A stretch of DNA of 64,000 nucleotides, from the NCBI RefSeq assembly GCF_014642075.1, contig NZ_BMIK01000006.1, positions 124,677-188,676 of the forward strand, given 5' to 3'. The DNA is from Parapedobacter defluvii (lineage in GTDB: Bacteria > Bacteroidota > Bacteroidia > Sphingobacteriales > Sphingobacteriaceae). Shown here piece by piece: positions 54,301 to 60,973 of the stretch. Both the position numbers and the translations under genes were made by a program. Under the pieces are notes generated by a model. It saw nothing but the letters and a program-made list of their open reading frames with translations, searched no databases and was not told the origin of the DNA. How positions within the stretch are numbered: the stretch's first letter is position 1; each line of letters starts with the position of its first letter.

Positions 54301-55551
54301 TTAGTCGACGGGCTCTGTGATCATTAGCGCCGCCACAGTCAGGTTATTCCGCAGATCAATGAGAATTGCGCCACCGTTTGCTTTGTTCGACACGTAGCTG
54401 TCAAATGCCAGCGGATCTGCCGATTTGAATTGGATTTTACCGATGTCGTTCAAATCAAGCTCTGCAGCGGCCGACTGCTGTAATGTTTCAACGTTGACCC
54501 GGTAAATTACGTCCTGTATTTTTACCTTGGCTGTTTTTCCGTGCTGCTGCAGCAAATAAAACTGATTGAGATCCAGCGGCCGGGTATCCATCCAGCAGAT
54601 TTCCGCTTCAAAGCGCTGTGAAACAGCGGGCTGCTCATCTTGTTTTACCAGCATATCTCCCCTGCTGATATCGATGTCATCAGCCAGGTGGATGACAACA
54701 GAAGCACCCTCGGGTGCGGTATTTAAATCGTTGTTAGCCAATTCAATACGGCTAACTATGCTGCTGAATCCGGATGGCAATGCGACCACCCGGTCCCCCA
54801 CTTCAAACGTACCTCCCACTACCCGTCCCGCATAGCCGCGGTAATCGTGTAATGCCTGTGTCTGTGGCCGGATGACCCATTGTACCGGAAAACGGGCCTG
54901 CTTGTTATCCGAGGCATGATCTATTTGTACGGTTTCAAGGAAGTCCAGCAAAGGTCTGCCCTGGTACCAGGGGATATTTATAGACGTTGTAACGATGTTA
55001 TCGCCCTTCAACGCGCTCACAGGGATATAATCGATCTGTTTGATGCGTAGACTTTGTGCAAGCCGCTCGTAATCTGTTTTGATTTTGTCGAATACCGCCT
55101 GGTCGTAGTCTACCATATCCATTTTATTCACACACACGAGGACATTCGGGATCCCCAGTAACGACACAATAAACGAATGCCTCCGTGTTTGTTCCACCAC
55201 ACCTTTGCGTGCATCGATCAGGATGATGGCCAAATCAGAATTGGACGCTCCGGTTACCATGTTCCGGGTATATTGAATATGCCCGGGTGCATCTGCGATA
55301 ATGAATTTACGCTTTTCCGTTTGGAAATATTTGTATGCCACATCAATGGTAATTCCCTGTTCGCGTTCCGCCTTTAGTCCATCGGTCAATATGGCTAAAT
55401 CCAGTGTGCCGTCGTTGTTTTTCCGGTTGGCTCGTTGTATGGCCTCCAATTGATCGTCAAGCACCGAGTTTGTATCATACAGCAATCGCCCGATCAGTGT
55501 GCTCTTTCCGTCGTCCACACTTCCTGCTGTAATAAATTTTAATAGATCCAT
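54301..55551 (-). CDS. cysN: Sulfate adenylyltransferase subunit 1 (GTPase)
   Basis: 416 residues. Translation-factor-like GTPase: SVDDGKSTLIGRLLYD (P-loop), GITIDVAYKYF (switch I), DAPGHIQYTRNMVTG (switch II) and NKMDMVDYD (guanine). Beta-barrel domains 2 and 3 fill the rest (VQWVIRPQTQALHDYRG onwards). There is no CysC (APS kinase) domain. It drives sulfate activation to APS together with CysD. Last gene of the operon, followed by a terminator. Confidence 0.95.
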   Translation of the reverse strand: MDLLKFITAGSVDDGKSTLIGRLLYDTNSVLDDQLEAIQRANRKNNDGTLDLAILTDGLKAEREQGITIDVAYKYFQTEKRKFIIADAPGHIQYTRNMVTGASNSDLAIILIDARKGVVEQTRRHSFIVSLLGIPNVLVCVNKMDMVDYDQAVFDKIKTDYERLAQSLRIKQIDYIPVSALKGDNIVTTSINIPWYQGRPLLDFLETVQIDHASDNKQARFPVQWVIRPQTQALHDYRGYAGRVVGGTFEVGDRVVALPSGFSSIVSRIELANNDLNTAPEGASVVIHLADDIDISRGDMLVKQDEQPAVSQRFEAEICWMDTRPLDLNQFYLLQQHGKTAKVKIQDVIYRVNVETLQQSAAAELDLNDIGKIQFKSADPLAFDSYVSNKANGGAILIDLRNNLTVAALMITEPVD

Positions 55552-55591: not shown

Positions 55592-56482
55592 TCAAAAATA
55601 TCCGCCTTTTTTACGGTCCTCCATTGCAGCTTCCGACACCTTGTCGTCCATTCTGGCTCCGCGTTCACTTATTTTCGACAACCGGATTTCTTCGATGATG
55701 TCATCGATGTGGTAGGCCTCGGAGGGTACTGCAGCAGTACAGGTCATATCCCCTACCGTCCGGAACCGTACTTTCCGGTATTCGATTACATCTTCGTGAT
55801 CTAGGTTCAGAAATTCGGTAGCTGCCATTAATTGTCCGTTGCGGGTGATGACATCGCGCTCATGGGAAAAATAAATGGAGGGCAACTTAATATTTTCTCT
55901 CCGGATGTAATTCCATACGTCCAGCTCCGTCCAGTTGCTGATGGGAAACACCCGTACGTTTTCTCCTTTATGGATACGTCCGTTGTAGATGTTCCATAGC
56001 TCCGGGCGTTGCCTTTTGGGATCCCATTGTCCAAACTCATCGCGCACCGAAAAAATGCGCTCCTTGGCCCGTGCTTTTTCCTCATCCCGTCTGGCACCAC
56101 CGATGCAGGCGTCAAAACCATGCTTCGCAATGGTATCAAGAAGTGTAACGGTCTGAAGTGGGTTCCGGCTGGCGTTCTTGCCTTTCTGCTCAACCACTTT
56201 TCCGGTATCAATGCTTTCCTGTACGTAACCAACGATTAGTTCTTCCCCCAACCTAGCTACTAGTTCATCACGGAATTCAATGGTTTCGGGAAAATTATGA
56301 CCGGTATCTATATGCACCAGTGGGAATGGGAATTTGCCGGGGCGAAATGCTTTTTCTGCTAAATGAACCAATGTTATGGAGTCCTTTCCTCCGGAAAATA
56401 GCAAAGCCGGTTTTTCAAATTGACCTGCCACCTCACGCAGGATATAGATCGCCTCCGCCTCTAAATGGTCTAAATAATCCAT
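55592..56482 (-). CDS. cysD: Sulfate adenylyltransferase subunit 2
   Basis: 296 residues from the ATG at 56482, which aligns with the usual CysD start; a frame from 56554 adds 24 residues with no resemblance and runs through A-rich leader-like sequence. ALLFSGGKDSITLVHLAEKAF is the PP-loop (ATP pyrophosphatase), HIDTGHNFPETIEFRDEL binds sulfate/ATP, and ACIGGARRDEEKARAKERIFS the second PP motif. With CysN it forms APS from sulfate and ATP. The cysN gene follows after 40 bases. Confidence 0.94.
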   Translation of the reverse strand: MDYLDHLEAEAIYILREVAGQFEKPALLFSGGKDSITLVHLAEKAFRPGKFPFPLVHIDTGHNFPETIEFRDELVARLGEELIVGYVQESIDTGKVVEQKGKNASRNPLQTVTLLDTIAKHGFDACIGGARRDEEKARAKERIFSVRDEFGQWDPKRQRPELWNIYNGRIHKGENVRVFPISNWTELDVWNYIRRENIKLPSIYFSHERDVITRNGQLMAATEFLNLDHEDVIEYRKVRFRTVGDMTCTAAVPSEAYHIDDIIEEIRLSKISERGARMDDKVSEAAMEDRKKGGYF

Positions 56483-56563
56483 ATTTGTTGTTTGTTGTAT
56501 TTTTTCAGTTATCTGCTTTCGGCTATCGGCCTTTAGCGAGATACCTTCGTTCATTCGTAACGC

Positions 56564-57274
56564 TCAATGTGTTTCGGTAGCGTGCAATCCGCATTCTTTT
56601 TTACTGGTATCCTCCCACCACCAGCGGCCTGCCCGGAAGTCCTCCCCTTCCCTGACGGCACGTGTACAGGGAGCACATCCGATGCTGGGAAATCCTTTGT
56701 CATGCAGCGGGTTATAGGGAATATGGTGCGCCTTCGTGAAGCTCCAAACTTCATCCAACGACCAATCGTAGATCGGATGGAACTTGAGCAACTGGTTGTT
56801 GTTGTCCCATTCAATCTGGGACATACCCTGCCTGTTGTCCGACTGTTCAGCGCGGATGCCGGTAATCCAGCATTCTGCTCCTTCCAAAGCCCGTTGCAGG
56901 GGTTCAATTTTGCGGATACGGCAGCACTCTTTCCTGTTTTCGACCGACTCGTAGAAACTTGACGGCCCCTTTTGGCTGATCAGTTGCTGCACGGCATGGG
57001 TATCCGGGAAATACGCTTCGATGTCTTTTTTATAGATCTCCAGCGTACGGTTCCAAACGTAGTACGTTTCCGGAAATAACCGCCCCGTTTCCAGTGTAAA
57101 GACCCTGATGGGTAAATTGTTGCTAAAGATAAAATGTGTAATGATTTGATCTTCAATACCAAAACTGGTTGAAAATACGATCTTTCCCGGAAACCTATCG
57201 GCCAAAGCTGTTAATGCCTGCACCGTATCCTTTCCGTATACCAATTCGCTTATTTCTTCTGTCAAAACGTTCAT
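56564..57274 (-). CDS. cysH: Adenylyl-sulfate (APS) reductase
   Basis: 236 residues. KIVFSTSFGIEDQIITHFIF is the PP-loop fold; RVFTLETGRLFPETY binds the nucleotide; and KECGLH near the C-terminus carries the catalytic Cys. Two more Cys pairs are present: ECCRIRKIEPL and GCAPCTRAV, which together bind a 4Fe-4S cluster. They are absent in PAPS reductase of E. coli and mark APS reductases. This fits the lack of an APS kinase in this operon. It reduces APS to sulfite with thioredoxin. The stop codon of the previous gene overlaps its start by four bases. Confidence 0.93.
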   Translation of the reverse strand: MNVLTEEISELVYGKDTVQALTALADRFPGKIVFSTSFGIEDQIITHFIFSNNLPIRVFTLETGRLFPETYYVWNRTLEIYKKDIEAYFPDTHAVQQLISQKGPSSFYESVENRKECCRIRKIEPLQRALEGAECWITGIRAEQSDNRQGMSQIEWDNNNQLLKFHPIYDWSLDEVWSFTKAHHIPYNPLHDKGFPSIGCAPCTRAVREGEDFRAGRWWWEDTSKKECGLHATETH

Positions 57275-57870
57275 ATTCCCTCCTTTGACGCCAGCAGCGA
57301 AGCAGTATGTGCATTCAATGCCTTTACCTTGTCATTGAAATCCCCCTTTAGTAAATCCCGCAGCTGACTCATATATGTCAGTGTCTCATCAATTTCGTCC
57401 GGCAACGCGTCATTCAATAATTCTTTGATTCTTTTTGCAATGGTCGGTGATTTGCCGTTGGTCGAAATTCCCAGTTTCAGATTTCCTTTCTTTACGACCG
57501 AGCCCAGGTAAAAATCACACAAATCCGGTTTATCTGCCACGTTGATTAACAAATGTCGTTTACGGCATTCATTCCGGATATGTGCATTCAATTGAGGATT
57601 ATTGGATGCCACCACGACCAGGTCCACCCCGTCGAGATCCGCTTCTTCGAATGCGCGCTCGCGCAATCGCACAGCGGGGTAGTCAGCAACATAGCTGCGC
57701 ACATCTGTACTGATTTCGCGTGCCACAAGCGTTACCGTTGCTTCCGGGCTGTTACCCAGCAATGCCGTCAGTTTCTCCAATCCCACGTTTCCTCCACCCA
57801 CGAGCAGGACATGCAGTTTATTCAACTGCAGGAACACAGGAAACAACGGATTGCCTGTAACTTCTTTCAT
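57271..57870 (-). CDS. Precorrin-2 dehydrogenase/sirohydrochlorin ferrochelatase (Met8-like)
   Basis: 199 residues, corresponding to the N-terminal CysG half. FLQLNKLHVLLVGGGNVGLEKLTALL is the NAD-binding strand with GGGNVG; ASNNPQLNAHIRNECRKRHLLINVADKPDLCDF holds the catalytic Asp and the Asn near the NAD; STNGKSPTIAKRIKELL the second half. It oxidises precorrin-2 and inserts iron to make sirohaem. Coupled on both sides by ATGA overlaps to cobA and cysH. Confidence 0.92.
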   Translation of the reverse strand: MKEVTGNPLFPVFLQLNKLHVLLVGGGNVGLEKLTALLGNSPEATVTLVAREISTDVRSYVADYPAVRLRERAFEEADLDGVDLVVVASNNPQLNAHIRNECRKRHLLINVADKPDLCDFYLGSVVKKGNLKLGISTNGKSPTIAKRIKELLNDALPDEIDETLTYMSQLRDLLKGDFNDKVKALNAHTASLLASKEGI

Positions 57871-58625
57871 ACCGCTATCGCATTGGCTTGTTCCAGCCCG
57901 AATTGTTTATGTTTGGCTACGACCTCGCCGATCACAATGACCGCAGGTGCGCCTATTCCCTGATCTTTTACGTGCGCAACAATGGTATCTATCGTGCCTA
58001 ATACGATCTTTTCGTCAGGCATAGAGCCATTTTGGATCACGGCAATCGGAAGGTTTCCTTTTCCCTCGTTCCGGAAAACCGTAACGATCTCCGTGAGCTT
58101 ATTCAGTCCCATGAGGATGACAACCGTGGCTCCGGTCTTGGCGGCAGCATGGATATCCTGCGAAATTACGCCGGCCGTGGTTGCACCGGTAATCACCCAG
58201 AAACTCTCACTTATGCCGCGGTAGGTTAACGGTATTCCCTGTAATCCCGCAAGTGCGACAGCGCTGCTTATACCGGGTACCACAGCGGTGGGGATACCGC
58301 ATAGCGCGGCGTGATCCAATTCTTCACCGCCTCTTCCGAATACAAACGGATCGCCGCCTTTCAACCGTACCACATGGCCATTCGAACGGGCATAGGCCAC
58401 CATCATTTCATTGATCTGTTGCTGGCTATATGCGTGCTGGTTTGCGCGTTTGCCCACGAAAACCCGCAGTGCCTCTTTCGGTACATATTCCAGCAGCTCT
58501 TCGTTGACCAACGCGTCGTAAAGCACCACATCGGCTGTTGACAATGCTTTCAATCCCTTGAGGCTGATCAAATCAGTATCCCCCGGCCCCGCTCCTACTA
58601 ACGTTATTTTGGGATAAGCGTTCAT
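57867..58625 (-). CDS. cobA: Uroporphyrinogen-III C-methyltransferase
   Basis: 252 residues from the ATG at 58625, the fitting start; a frame from 58649 adds eight residues. GAGPGDTDLISLKGLKALSTADVVLYDALV and RLKGGDPFVFGRGGEE are the two SAM-binding signatures of the cobA/cysG C-terminal family; PGISSAVALAGLQGIPLTYRG the substrate region; ILMGLNKL closes it. It converts uroporphyrinogen III to precorrin-2 for sirohaem. Second gene of the cys operon. Confidence 0.94.
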   Translation of the reverse strand: MNAYPKITLVGAGPGDTDLISLKGLKALSTADVVLYDALVNEELLEYVPKEALRVFVGKRANQHAYSQQQINEMMVAYARSNGHVVRLKGGDPFVFGRGGEELDHAALCGIPTAVVPGISSAVALAGLQGIPLTYRGISESFWVITGATTAGVISQDIHAAAKTGATVVILMGLNKLTEIVTVFRNEGKGNLPIAVIQNGSMPDEKIVLGTIDTIVAHVKDQGIGAPAVIVIGEVVAKHKQFGLEQANAIAV

Positions 58626-58663
58626 TTTCTTAACTTGTTGTTCATGCATTTAACCTGCCGTTA

Positions 58664-60772
58664 TTAACCATTTACCTCGGCGGTAACCGATCGTTTCGCA
58701 GCGACTGTTTGATAGAAATCGATTACGCCGGCAAGGTATTGACGGGCAAATGCCTCCGAAGGCTCGTGCTTGTTGATTTCCAGCACCCGGTCTTCAAAAC
58801 CGCCGGATACCAGGAACTCACCCGATTCCACGAAATTCTTATCAAAATCCCTGATAATTGCAATCTGGGTACTGCTGTGGATGCCTTTGTCAAGCAACAA
58901 GGCTTTTGCGGTACTTATGTATACGGCATAGGCATGATAGATCGCATCGGCATAAGCGCCTGCACTGTAGCTCTCGTTTGCCCAGCCCAGTTTTTCTTCC
59001 GCCTCGAATAGTAACACCGCAACGAGGTCGATGACCACACCGGCACACTCGCCCACACCGATCGCCTGCTGGTAGGTTTCCTGGTGTCCCCAATCGACAA
59101 ACTCATCCTCAATCAGCGTGGTAAGGTCTGCCAGCGGTTTCAGCATGCGGTAAAAATAATCTTTGGTTTGCCGGTCGTAGTAATCATGAAAGCGCTCTTC
59201 CGGATTGGAATTAGCCAGGTAATCGTCCAGCAGCAAACGTACGGCACTGACTACGCGCTTAGACGGAACTTTGATCACACGTTCAGCCACGCGTCCCAGT
59301 CCGTCGCCCAACACACCGCCTCCCAGCATAATCTGGGCGGCAGGAACCACCCTGCCATCGGCTTTCAGCGAGCTACCGTGTATCCCGATGTTTGCGATCC
59401 CATGCTGTCCGCATGAATTCATGCACCCGCTGATTTTGATTTTAATTTCCCGGTCAAAAACCAGTTCCTCATATTCATCGTATATTAACGATTCGAGCAC
59501 CCTGGCCATTTCGGTACTGTTGGAAATACCGAGGTTACATGTATCCGTACCCGGGCAGGTGGTCACATCGGCTACGCTGTCAAAACCGGGTTTGGCGAAA
59601 CCGATCTTTTCCAGCACATTGTATATATGCGGAAGGGATTCTTCCCGTGCAAATTTCAGCAGCAGTCCCTGATTTTGTGTAATCCGTACTTCATCGGCCA
59701 CATGCCCGCGTATACCTGCTATCAATACCCGTGCATCCTTGGTCGGCATGTCACCGGTTGGCACCTTCACATAGACGGCATAATACCCCGTCTGTTTTTG
59801 TTCCCATGTATTGGTCTTTTTCCAGACCTCATACGCGATCGGATTCGACACAGGCTCCTCCTCGATCGGGCGTAATTCCGGTGGTTCAGGTTGGGGCACC
59901 GCATCTCGGTCGATCTTGAATGTCTTTACTTTGCTTGCTATCTGCTCTTCAGCAATCAGCCGTTTTACTTCATCCAGCCCAAGCTTTTGGATCAGATATT
60001 TAAAACGGGCTTTGTTTCTGTTGTTCCGTTCGCCATACCGGTCAAATACCCGGAGTACACTTTCCGAATAGGGAATCAACTGGTCTTCGGGAAGGAACTC
60101 ATGCACCAGGTGCCCGGCCATCGGCTGCGCCCCGAGCCCACCGCCCAGGATCACCCGGAATCCGCGTTCTTCGACGTTATTCACCGTCCGGACTTTTGGA
60201 ATAAAACCCAGGTCCTGCCCAAAAGCAAAAGCCGTATCCCGTGTGCTGGATGAAAAGCCGAATTTAAACTTCCGGCCGAGTTCCTGGCAAATCGGATTGC
60301 GCAGGAAATAGGAAAATGTCGCGTGTGCATAGGGCGACACATCAAACGGTTCCTCGGGATCAATACCCGCCTGGGGAGATGCCGTCACATTACGCACGGT
60401 GTTGCCGCAGGCCTCGCGGATGGTGATATCATCCTGGGCCAATTTCGCCCAGAGTTCGGGTGTACGGTCCAAACTCACAAAGTGAATCTGTATGTCCTGC
60501 CGGGTGGTAAAATGCAAATTCCGGATGGCATACTCATCGGATATATCCGCAATGCGCAGCAGTTGCTTGAACGTTGCTTTGCCGAAAGGTAGCTTAATCC
60601 GTACCATCTGTACGCCGGGTTGCCGTTGACCATAAATTCCCCGGGCCAGACGTAGGCTCTTGAATTTATCTTCAACCATGGATCCTTCCCGATACGCTCT
60701 GATTTTGCGTTCGAGCTCGATGATTTCCTTTTCAACAACCGGATTTTCCAGTTCGGTTCGAAAGCTCTGCAT
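58664..60772 (-). CDS. sir: Sulfite reductase (ferredoxin type) with C-terminal HEPN-like domain
   Basis: 702 residues, longer than the usual about 560. Residues about 1-560 are the duplicated sulfite/nitrite reductase fold: PGVQMVRIKLPFGKATFKQL, NLHFTTRQDIQIHF, TVRNVTASPQAGIDPEEPFDVSPYA, and the cluster/sirohaem ligands CPGTDTCNLGISN plus CMNSCGQHGIANIGIHGS. Residues about 580-695 (EAEEKLGWANESYSAGAYADAIYHAYAVYISTAKALLL) look like a HEPN all-helical domain, typical of Bacteroidetes versions, role unknown. No flavoprotein subunit is present, so ferredoxin is the likely donor. First gene of the operon behind a Cys leader peptide and attenuator. Confidence 0.92.
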   Translation of the reverse strand: MQSFRTELENPVVEKEIIELERKIRAYREGSMVEDKFKSLRLARGIYGQRQPGVQMVRIKLPFGKATFKQLLRIADISDEYAIRNLHFTTRQDIQIHFVSLDRTPELWAKLAQDDITIREACGNTVRNVTASPQAGIDPEEPFDVSPYAHATFSYFLRNPICQELGRKFKFGFSSSTRDTAFAFGQDLGFIPKVRTVNNVEERGFRVILGGGLGAQPMAGHLVHEFLPEDQLIPYSESVLRVFDRYGERNNRNKARFKYLIQKLGLDEVKRLIAEEQIASKVKTFKIDRDAVPQPEPPELRPIEEEPVSNPIAYEVWKKTNTWEQKQTGYYAVYVKVPTGDMPTKDARVLIAGIRGHVADEVRITQNQGLLLKFAREESLPHIYNVLEKIGFAKPGFDSVADVTTCPGTDTCNLGISNSTEMARVLESLIYDEYEELVFDREIKIKISGCMNSCGQHGIANIGIHGSSLKADGRVVPAAQIMLGGGVLGDGLGRVAERVIKVPSKRVVSAVRLLLDDYLANSNPEERFHDYYDRQTKDYFYRMLKPLADLTTLIEDEFVDWGHQETYQQAIGVGECAGVVIDLVAVLLFEAEEKLGWANESYSAGAYADAIYHAYAVYISTAKALLLDKGIHSSTQIAIIRDFDKNFVESGEFLVSGGFEDRVLEINKHEPSEAFARQYLAGVIDFYQTVAAKRSVTAEVNG

Positions 60773-60796
60773 GAATGTTGTTTAGTTATATTTTAT

Positions 60797-60829
60797 AAAT
60801 AATAAAACCTCCCTAATTGTTAGCGGAGG
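60797..60829 (-). terminator. Attenuator terminator of the sulfate-assimilation operon
   Basis: Minus strand: CCTCC, bulged G, CTAA, loop CAA, TTAG, GGAGG, then TTTTATTATTT. The nine-base-pair stem and T-rich tail lie 24 bases before the sulfite reductase start, so it would stop transcription before the first structural gene. Confidence 0.8.
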
Positions 60830-60873
60830 CCGTTATATCTTACCTTAAGCGGAAACGTATACCAACAGCCACC
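60825..60873 (-). promoter_or_regulatory. Predicted antiterminator helix
   Basis: GGTGGCTGTT (60873-60864) can pair with AACGGCCTCC (60834-60825) at nine of ten positions (one T-T mismatch, one GU). This uses the CCTCC needed by the terminator, so the two structures exclude each other. The 5' arm begins right behind the leader-peptide stop codon. Confidence 0.65.
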
Positions 60874-60874
60874 C

Positions 60875-60925
60875 TTATTCAAGAGGCATGCAACAGTACA
60901 TTTTTTGCTCGTTTGTTTGTTTCAT
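60875..60925 (-). CDS. Cys-rich leader peptide of the sulfate-assimilation operon
   Basis: A 16-residue frame, MKQTNEQKMYCCMPLE, with adjacent Cys codons 11 and 12 (TGT TGC) followed by Met. It stops at 60877-60875, two bases before the 5' arm of a possible antiterminator. A ribosome held at the Cys codons would leave the arm free; one that reaches the stop would cover it, letting the terminator form. Translated product is probably without function. Start at 60925 lies four bases behind a -7 box. Short frames occur by chance; position, Cys pair and paired structures together make this one credible. Confidence 0.65.
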   Translation of the reverse strand: MKQTNEQKMYCCMPLE

Positions 60926-60929
60926 GCGA

Positions 60930-60937
60930 CAAATATA
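60930..60937 (-). promoter_or_regulatory. Candidate -7 box of the sulfate-assimilation operon
   Basis: TATATTTG on the minus strand fits TAnnTTTG. It ends four bases before the leader-peptide ATG. A clear -33 TTG is not found, so the call is tentative. Confidence 0.45.
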
Positions 60938-60973
60938 CGTAAAGTATATAGAAATAGTAGAATAAAATTAAAA

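Follow-up and report, generated by a model that had tools for sequence, protein, structure and literature searches.

A predicted cysteine-responsive leader-peptide attenuator ahead of the sulfate-assimilation operon in Parapedobacter and related Bacteroidota

We analyzed a 64,000-nucleotide stretch of DNA (the window) from the soil bacterium Parapedobacter defluvii and found on its minus strand, ahead of the sir-cobA-cysG-cysH-cysD-cysN operon, every element that an earlier reading of the letters (the original prediction) had named. Taken together with their counterparts in relatives, these elements are highly likely to form a trp/his-type transcription attenuator that works through the ribosome and senses cysteine, with Cys-tRNA as its signal. 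As judged from the sequence, this RNA switch very probably lets transcription into the operon continue only in cysteine shortage. The operon genes, which all run in one direction, make sulfide for cysteine, and the switch would offer a concrete, testable answer to how these Bacteroidota turn on sulfate assimilation. The features are collected in Table 1.

Table 1. Observed and predicted features of the leader region and of the operon behind it, in window coordinates
Feature	Position	Strand	Basis
Promoter-upstream block CTACTATTTCTATATACTTTACG	60938..60960	-	consensus CTACTAtTtC..TATAC.tTA upstream of -7 box in several genera
Predicted -7 box TATATTTG, Bacteroidetes sigma-A type	60930..60937	-	sequence; consensus TAnnTTTG given for F. 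psychrophilum in PMC9723704
Predicted transcript start, A of leader ATG	60925	-	box spacing
Leader ORF MKQTNEQKMYCCMPLE, 16 codons	60875..60925	-	sequence; Cys-containing counterparts in relatives
Predicted control codons TGT TGC (Cys11-Cys12)	60890..60895	-	Cys-enriched leaders in relatives
Predicted antiterminator 5' arm GGTGGCTGTT	60864..60873	-	9/10 pairs with 60825-60834; duplex -15.8 kcal/mol
Predicted antiterminator 3' arm, overlaps terminator's 5' arm	60825..60834	-	pairing with 60864-60873
Predicted intrinsic terminator hairpin	60806..60831	-	fold -12.1 kcal/mol alone; GCCTCC...GGGAGG kept in Parapedobacter
T-rich tail TTTTATTATTTAT	60795..60807	-	sequence
sir, NirA-like sulfite/nitrite reductase, first gene of operon	58664..60772	-	NCBIfam NF007126 E 4.1e-66, below curated cut-off; other reductase models
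cobA-type uroporphyrinogen-III C-methyltransferase	57867..58649	-	profile match
cysG N-terminal type siroheme synthase domain	57271..57870	-	profile match
cysH, APS/PAPS reductase	56564..57274	-	profile match
cysD	55592..56554	-	profile match
cysN	54301..55551	-	profile match

The leader frame reads ATG AAA CAA ACA AAC GAG CAA AAA ATG TAC TGT TGC ATG CCT CTT GAA TAA, and its place directly upstream of the operon and its Cys-Cys-Met stretch are as first described. The antiterminator 5' arm begins two bases past the leader stop codon, and nine of its ten positions pair with the 3' arm, one of the nine as G.U, the remaining position being a U.U mismatch. This helix and the terminator hairpin are mutually exclusive, again at the coordinates originally given, and the T-rich tail of the hairpin lies about 24 bases from the sir ATG. 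In the minimum free energy fold of the window, the one fold in which a 1:2 pause or protector hairpin was sought, the Cys region pairs with the antiterminator arm. A generic terminator scan of the window did not list the hairpin among its terminators. Taken alone, the window leader has a mildly unusual fold (z = -1.53), and 20% of arm shuffles pair as well as its real antiterminator arm does (p = 0.20). The leader stretch by itself is not statistically striking, and the case therefore rests on relatives. We ruled out a known riboswitch or T-box at the element, where the Rfam covariance models had no match: across the window and ten related loci, tRNAs were their sole matches, and at 60760-60950 there was none up to E 1.

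From this arrangement, we infer how the leader would be translated, where the ribosome would stall, how transcription would end, and which way the switch would respond. Transcription would start at or beside the leader AUG, and a ribosome would presumably load at the RNA 5' end. With ample Cys-tRNA, the ribosome would reach the stop codon and cover the antiterminator arm, and the terminator hairpin would end transcription. With scarce Cys-tRNA, it would wait at Cys codons 11-12 with its front edge near 60879 and leave the arm free; the arm would then capture the 5' half of the terminator, and the polymerase would read into the operon. While a ribosome waits with a Cys codon in the A site, it shields some 12 bases beyond that codon. 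The distance from the first base of the last Cys codon to the 5' arm is 19 nt in the window (17 nt if the computed duplex is used); in a second family, f5, the corresponding distance is about 16 nt, so that the arm should be free in a stall and covered at the stop. The spacing agrees with the geometry put forward originally for the window.

We then considered where the transcript begins. In the passages of PMC9723704 that describe it, the sigma-A consensus TAnnTTTG of Flavobacterium psychrophilum sits at -12 to -5. The predicted +1 in the window coincides with the leader AUG, and the window leader is probably leaderless, to judge from this box. A transcript start downstream of 60875 would speak against an attenuator here; the promoter predicts otherwise, with +1 at 60925. 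We searched for leader starts 0-16 nt behind the -7 box, and the gap between box and start codon was 4 nt in 28 of 28 Pedobacter, 9 of 9 Pedobacter-like clade, and 5 of 6 Parapedobacter leaders; it was 4 nt in only 6 of the 33 Mucilaginibacter leaders. If the F. psychrophilum box position carries over, a 4-nt gap makes the AUG the RNA 5' end in the first three groups. Leaderless mRNAs account for just 5.5% of the F. psychrophilum set given in PMC9723704, and that text says that organisms of this group are without Shine-Dalgarno sequences. If the leaderless starts are true, the element would represent transcription attenuation from a 5'-terminal AUG in such organisms.

To follow the element through the Sphingobacteriaceae, we compared the sir upstream regions of 170 loci, 80 of them in named genomes, which gave 145 distinct regions; the family sample took in 60 of at least 120 listed family places. 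A region was counted as positive if a frame with at least one Cys codon started no more than 16 nt from the box and a terminator was present as well. Leader and terminator were counted in 79 of the 145 regions, and 71 of these 79 had at least two Cys codons. Positives came from Mucilaginibacter (33/47), Pedobacter (28/36), a Pedobacter-like clade (9/10), Parapedobacter (6/9, four of them with at least two Cys codons), Albibacterium (1/2), and two unplaced Bacteroidetes (2/2); there were none in Sphingobacterium (0/24), Olivibacter (0/5), g18 (0/5), g7 (0/2), and three others. Before the count, every Sphingobacterium call was dropped, and inspection by eye removed L149, L168, L169, L159, L078, and L093. 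The unedited count would be 82/145, since the automatic terminator test accepts L149, L169, and L159 (scores 19.3, 14.4, and 14.4); a recheck of Sphingobacterium found a Cys frame in two of the 24 regions, neither followed by a terminator. Three regions with a leader and no scored terminator (L031, L040, and L060) were entered as misses, and Cys leaders visible by eye at L018/L149 and at both g7 loci were missed by the caller.

In dinucleotide shuffles, which were made from the 79 positives only, a leader with at least two Cys codons plus a terminator arose in 2 of 3,160 trials, with a frame caller that favors Cys-rich frames in real and shuffled sequences alike. Set against 79 of 145 relatives, this count indicates that the element is more than chance. 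Cysteine accounts for 204 of the 1,606 leader codons in the 79 relatives, a figure that includes the caller's preference for Cys-rich frames, and common leader ends are MCCCCKTQ, NCCMxxxxSWL, MYCCCQ, and LCCMAVLK. The conservation of frame and terminator that the original prediction looked for among relatives was thus present in Mucilaginibacter, Pedobacter, and the Pedobacter-like clade and absent from Sphingobacterium and Olivibacter.

Within Parapedobacter itself, L006 and L009 have lost the element, the Cys codons of L005 are out of frame, and L004 and L008 retain a single Cys codon each. At L218 and L205, upstream of sir in Pedobacter suwonensis and P. terrae, the former keeps its Cys run but has ATA where the leader ATG would stand, and the latter has a decayed frame in the leader's place. 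At the g18 loci L063, L069, and L091, a promoter and a terminator lie ahead of sir with no Cys-rich frame visible between them.

Next, we asked whether arms and terminators change in step. We computed, as a duplex energy, how strongly the stretch that follows the Cys codons would pair with the 5' half of the terminator, and compared own pairs with pairs permuted within each genus. Own pairs gave -11.52 vs -10.50 for permuted pairs (sd 0.22), and none of 20,000 permutations was as good; with a wider arm region, 2 of 20,000 reached the own pairing. The signal comes from Mucilaginibacter and, weakly, from Pedobacter (0.038). We observed no co-variation beyond permutation among the six Parapedobacter sequences alone (fraction 0.58) or in the Pedobacter-like clade (0.30), so the compensatory changes originally called for appear in Mucilaginibacter and, weakly, in Pedobacter, and not in these. 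When arms were shuffled, 25 of the 79 beat 95% of their own shuffles (p 0.05). The fifth pair in Mucilaginibacter was G-C in 14 leaders, A-U in 5, and mixed in none (the motif is missing from 14 of the 33; Fisher 8.6e-5, with no correction for kinship). A MAFFT alignment of Parapedobacter shifts the arms, and no pair counts were taken from it.

The conserved block ahead of the -7 box hints at an additional layer of control by a transcription factor, for which 60938-60960 is possibly the operator; the search pattern for this block was picked after inspecting sequences. A regulator bound there could even be the main control, the leader and terminator being minor or partly vestigial. The block does recur across genera, including Olivibacter (4/5) and g18 (4/5), where no Cys leader was counted, and some congeners have no leader, as such control would allow. 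Selection on the leader must nonetheless be ongoing, because the co-variation of arm and terminator and the enrichment of Cys codons require it, and we regard a mainly promoter-based control as quite improbable. Attenuation and a transcription factor may both be present together.

A stronger form of the same conservation came from f5, another family of the same class, which its many genera mark as probably Chitinophagaceae. Of 80 f5 genomes, 26 have a homologue of sir with an E value no worse than 1e-100. Of 25 sir loci scanned, L250 being left out as cut, 20 carry frames with runs of three to nine consecutive Cys codons. Contigs end at L227 and L232, which the scan did not place correctly; the genome of L227 adds one more leader locus (L311). 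These polyCys frames number 31, of which 30 have a terminator, and two units stand in tandem at 11 of the 25 loci. Own pairing of arm and terminator across 30 units was -14.96 vs -10.06 for permuted pairs (sd 0.47), unmatched in 20,000 permutations, and the median distance from the last Cys codon to the arm start is 16 nt (IQR 14.25-17). In tandem pairs, own pairing beat cross-pairing with the neighboring unit in 14 of 15 cases. The same switch would work here with longer Cys runs, often as two switches in series. By eye, cobA- and cysG-N-like genes lie behind sir at all four f5 loci inspected, one of them interrupted by a masked stretch. At L241, several terminator-like stretches ending GGCTCTTTTT are repeated in a row between the two polyCys units, in the region from about 520 to 300 bases ahead of sir.

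We also ran a covariance model, R1, over 41 genomes and obtained matches in 37, mostly weak; most of the weak matches are probably plain terminators. Among the hits were polyCys units before cysH (L308, tandem) and cysM (L282, L309, and L310, tandem), both named from partial matches of 140-residue fragments below curated cut-offs, as well as before a thioredoxin-reductase-like protein (L302, its assignment likewise below the curated cut-off) and a peroxiredoxin (L306). The terminator test was laxer for these extra units (four T of eight), and some tails are short. Hits L285-L291, L303-L305, and L307 showed no polyCys leader with a terminator and are probably plain terminators. Overall, we lean towards a Cys-tRNA attenuation regulon for cysteine genes in at least two Bacteroidota families: leaderless before the sir operon in the Sphingobacteriaceae, with serial polyCys gates sharpening the response in f5, with units at sir, cysH, and cysM and perhaps also at the thioredoxin-reductase-like protein and the peroxiredoxin.

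The frame might instead work through translation or Rho-dependent termination, in the manner of leaderless mycobacterial polycysteine frames, with the decision then made elsewhere than at the hairpin. The predicted leaderless position and the Cys run do resemble the mycobacterial case as the relevant part of PMC1262725 presents it, and in g4, a genus of the same family, no clean U-tract terminator follows the Cys leader that lies ahead of a TonB receptor. We nevertheless consider this reading very improbable: a hairpin with a U-tract follows 79 of the 82 family Cys leaders examined and 30 of the 31 in f5, and the alternative helix uses the hairpin's own 5' arm. It is barely conceivable that a small Cys-rich peptide with a function of its own, such as metal or redox binding, is made from the frame. 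Cys-Cys and longer Cys runs would suit such a peptide, as would the likeness of N-terminal parts among some leaders within a genus; by eye, however, only the Cys codons are kept between genera, the length varies, and the spacing of the frame is tied to arm and terminator. Transcription attenuation by a stalled ribosome remains the reading that we prefer.

Leader-peptide transcription attenuators of the trp/his type are known from Proteobacteria. The element shares with them control codons, competing antiterminator and terminator, and the way the arm is placed with respect to a stalled ribosome, and differs in phylum, amino acid, and operon, and in its predicted leaderless start. Among cysteine leaders, the uORFC-8-2 motif of Rhodobacterales, predicted upstream of cysS (PMC8632094), likewise combines a short upstream frame holding tandem Cys codons with an intrinsic terminator, and Cys-tRNA is its proposed signal; the motif controls cysteinyl-tRNA synthetase in alphaproteobacteria, and the passages describing it mention neither tandem units nor a leaderless start. 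Actinobacterial cys operons also have Cys runs ahead of cysteine-pathway genes, but the portion of PMC1262725 that deals with them describes these leaders as without conserved terminators, whereas a terminator is present in the window and its relatives. The leader RNA of Salmonella mgtCBR holds two leader frames with attenuators in tandem, as in f5, but according to the section of PMC3641672 concerned these read ATP and proline, whereas both f5 units would read the same amino acid. Two attenuators in series for a single amino acid would lend themselves to studying whether a response becomes sharper or deeper when terminators are stacked. By the account of others, Canestrari and colleagues reported in 2020 that leaderless polycysteine frames, which the window's predicted leaderless frame would resemble, exert translational control in M. 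smegmatis.

Closer to Parapedobacter, PMC9723704 describes, in the part concerned, leader-peptide attenuation before unnamed amino-acid operons of F. psychrophilum, and its supplementary list might hold a cysteine case; short leader frames in Bacteroides are mentioned in a passage of PMC7366714. Among the matches listed in the open-access literature, subscription papers being outside the scope, no cysteine attenuator was described in Bacteroidota. As far as searched, the phylum, the operon, the leaderless start, and the serial arrangement are new; the kind of attenuation is itself known.

Other searches bear on how far the element extends. We ruled out a general cysteine regulon in Parapedobacter: 20 cysK/cysM-type loci in this genus contained a few CC or CxC frames, and none was followed by a terminator. 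A gapped pattern search of nine genomes gave mostly chance matches, with similar control counts in several genomes, and missed the window itself because the window tail does not have six T in a row. In 20 other genomes, where frames the size of cysH, cysD, and cysN mostly precede sir, the weak candidates in the sir upstream stretches were judged to be chance save L141 and L142; at L142, a TonB receptor is flanked by sir on one side and an O-succinylhomoserine sulfhydrylase-like gene on the other. Short frames ending CCCCC, CCCC, CCC, or CCS just before the stop codon occur in all four g4 genomes (L315-L318), some 130 to 80 bases ahead of a TonB-dependent receptor, and have no clean U-tract terminator. 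Finally, two Parapedobacter genomes have in common a short element that follows a -7 box and carries a strong CCCGGA/TCCGGG-type terminator (L116, G002:C21:822832-822910; L112, G007:C35:94538-94613).
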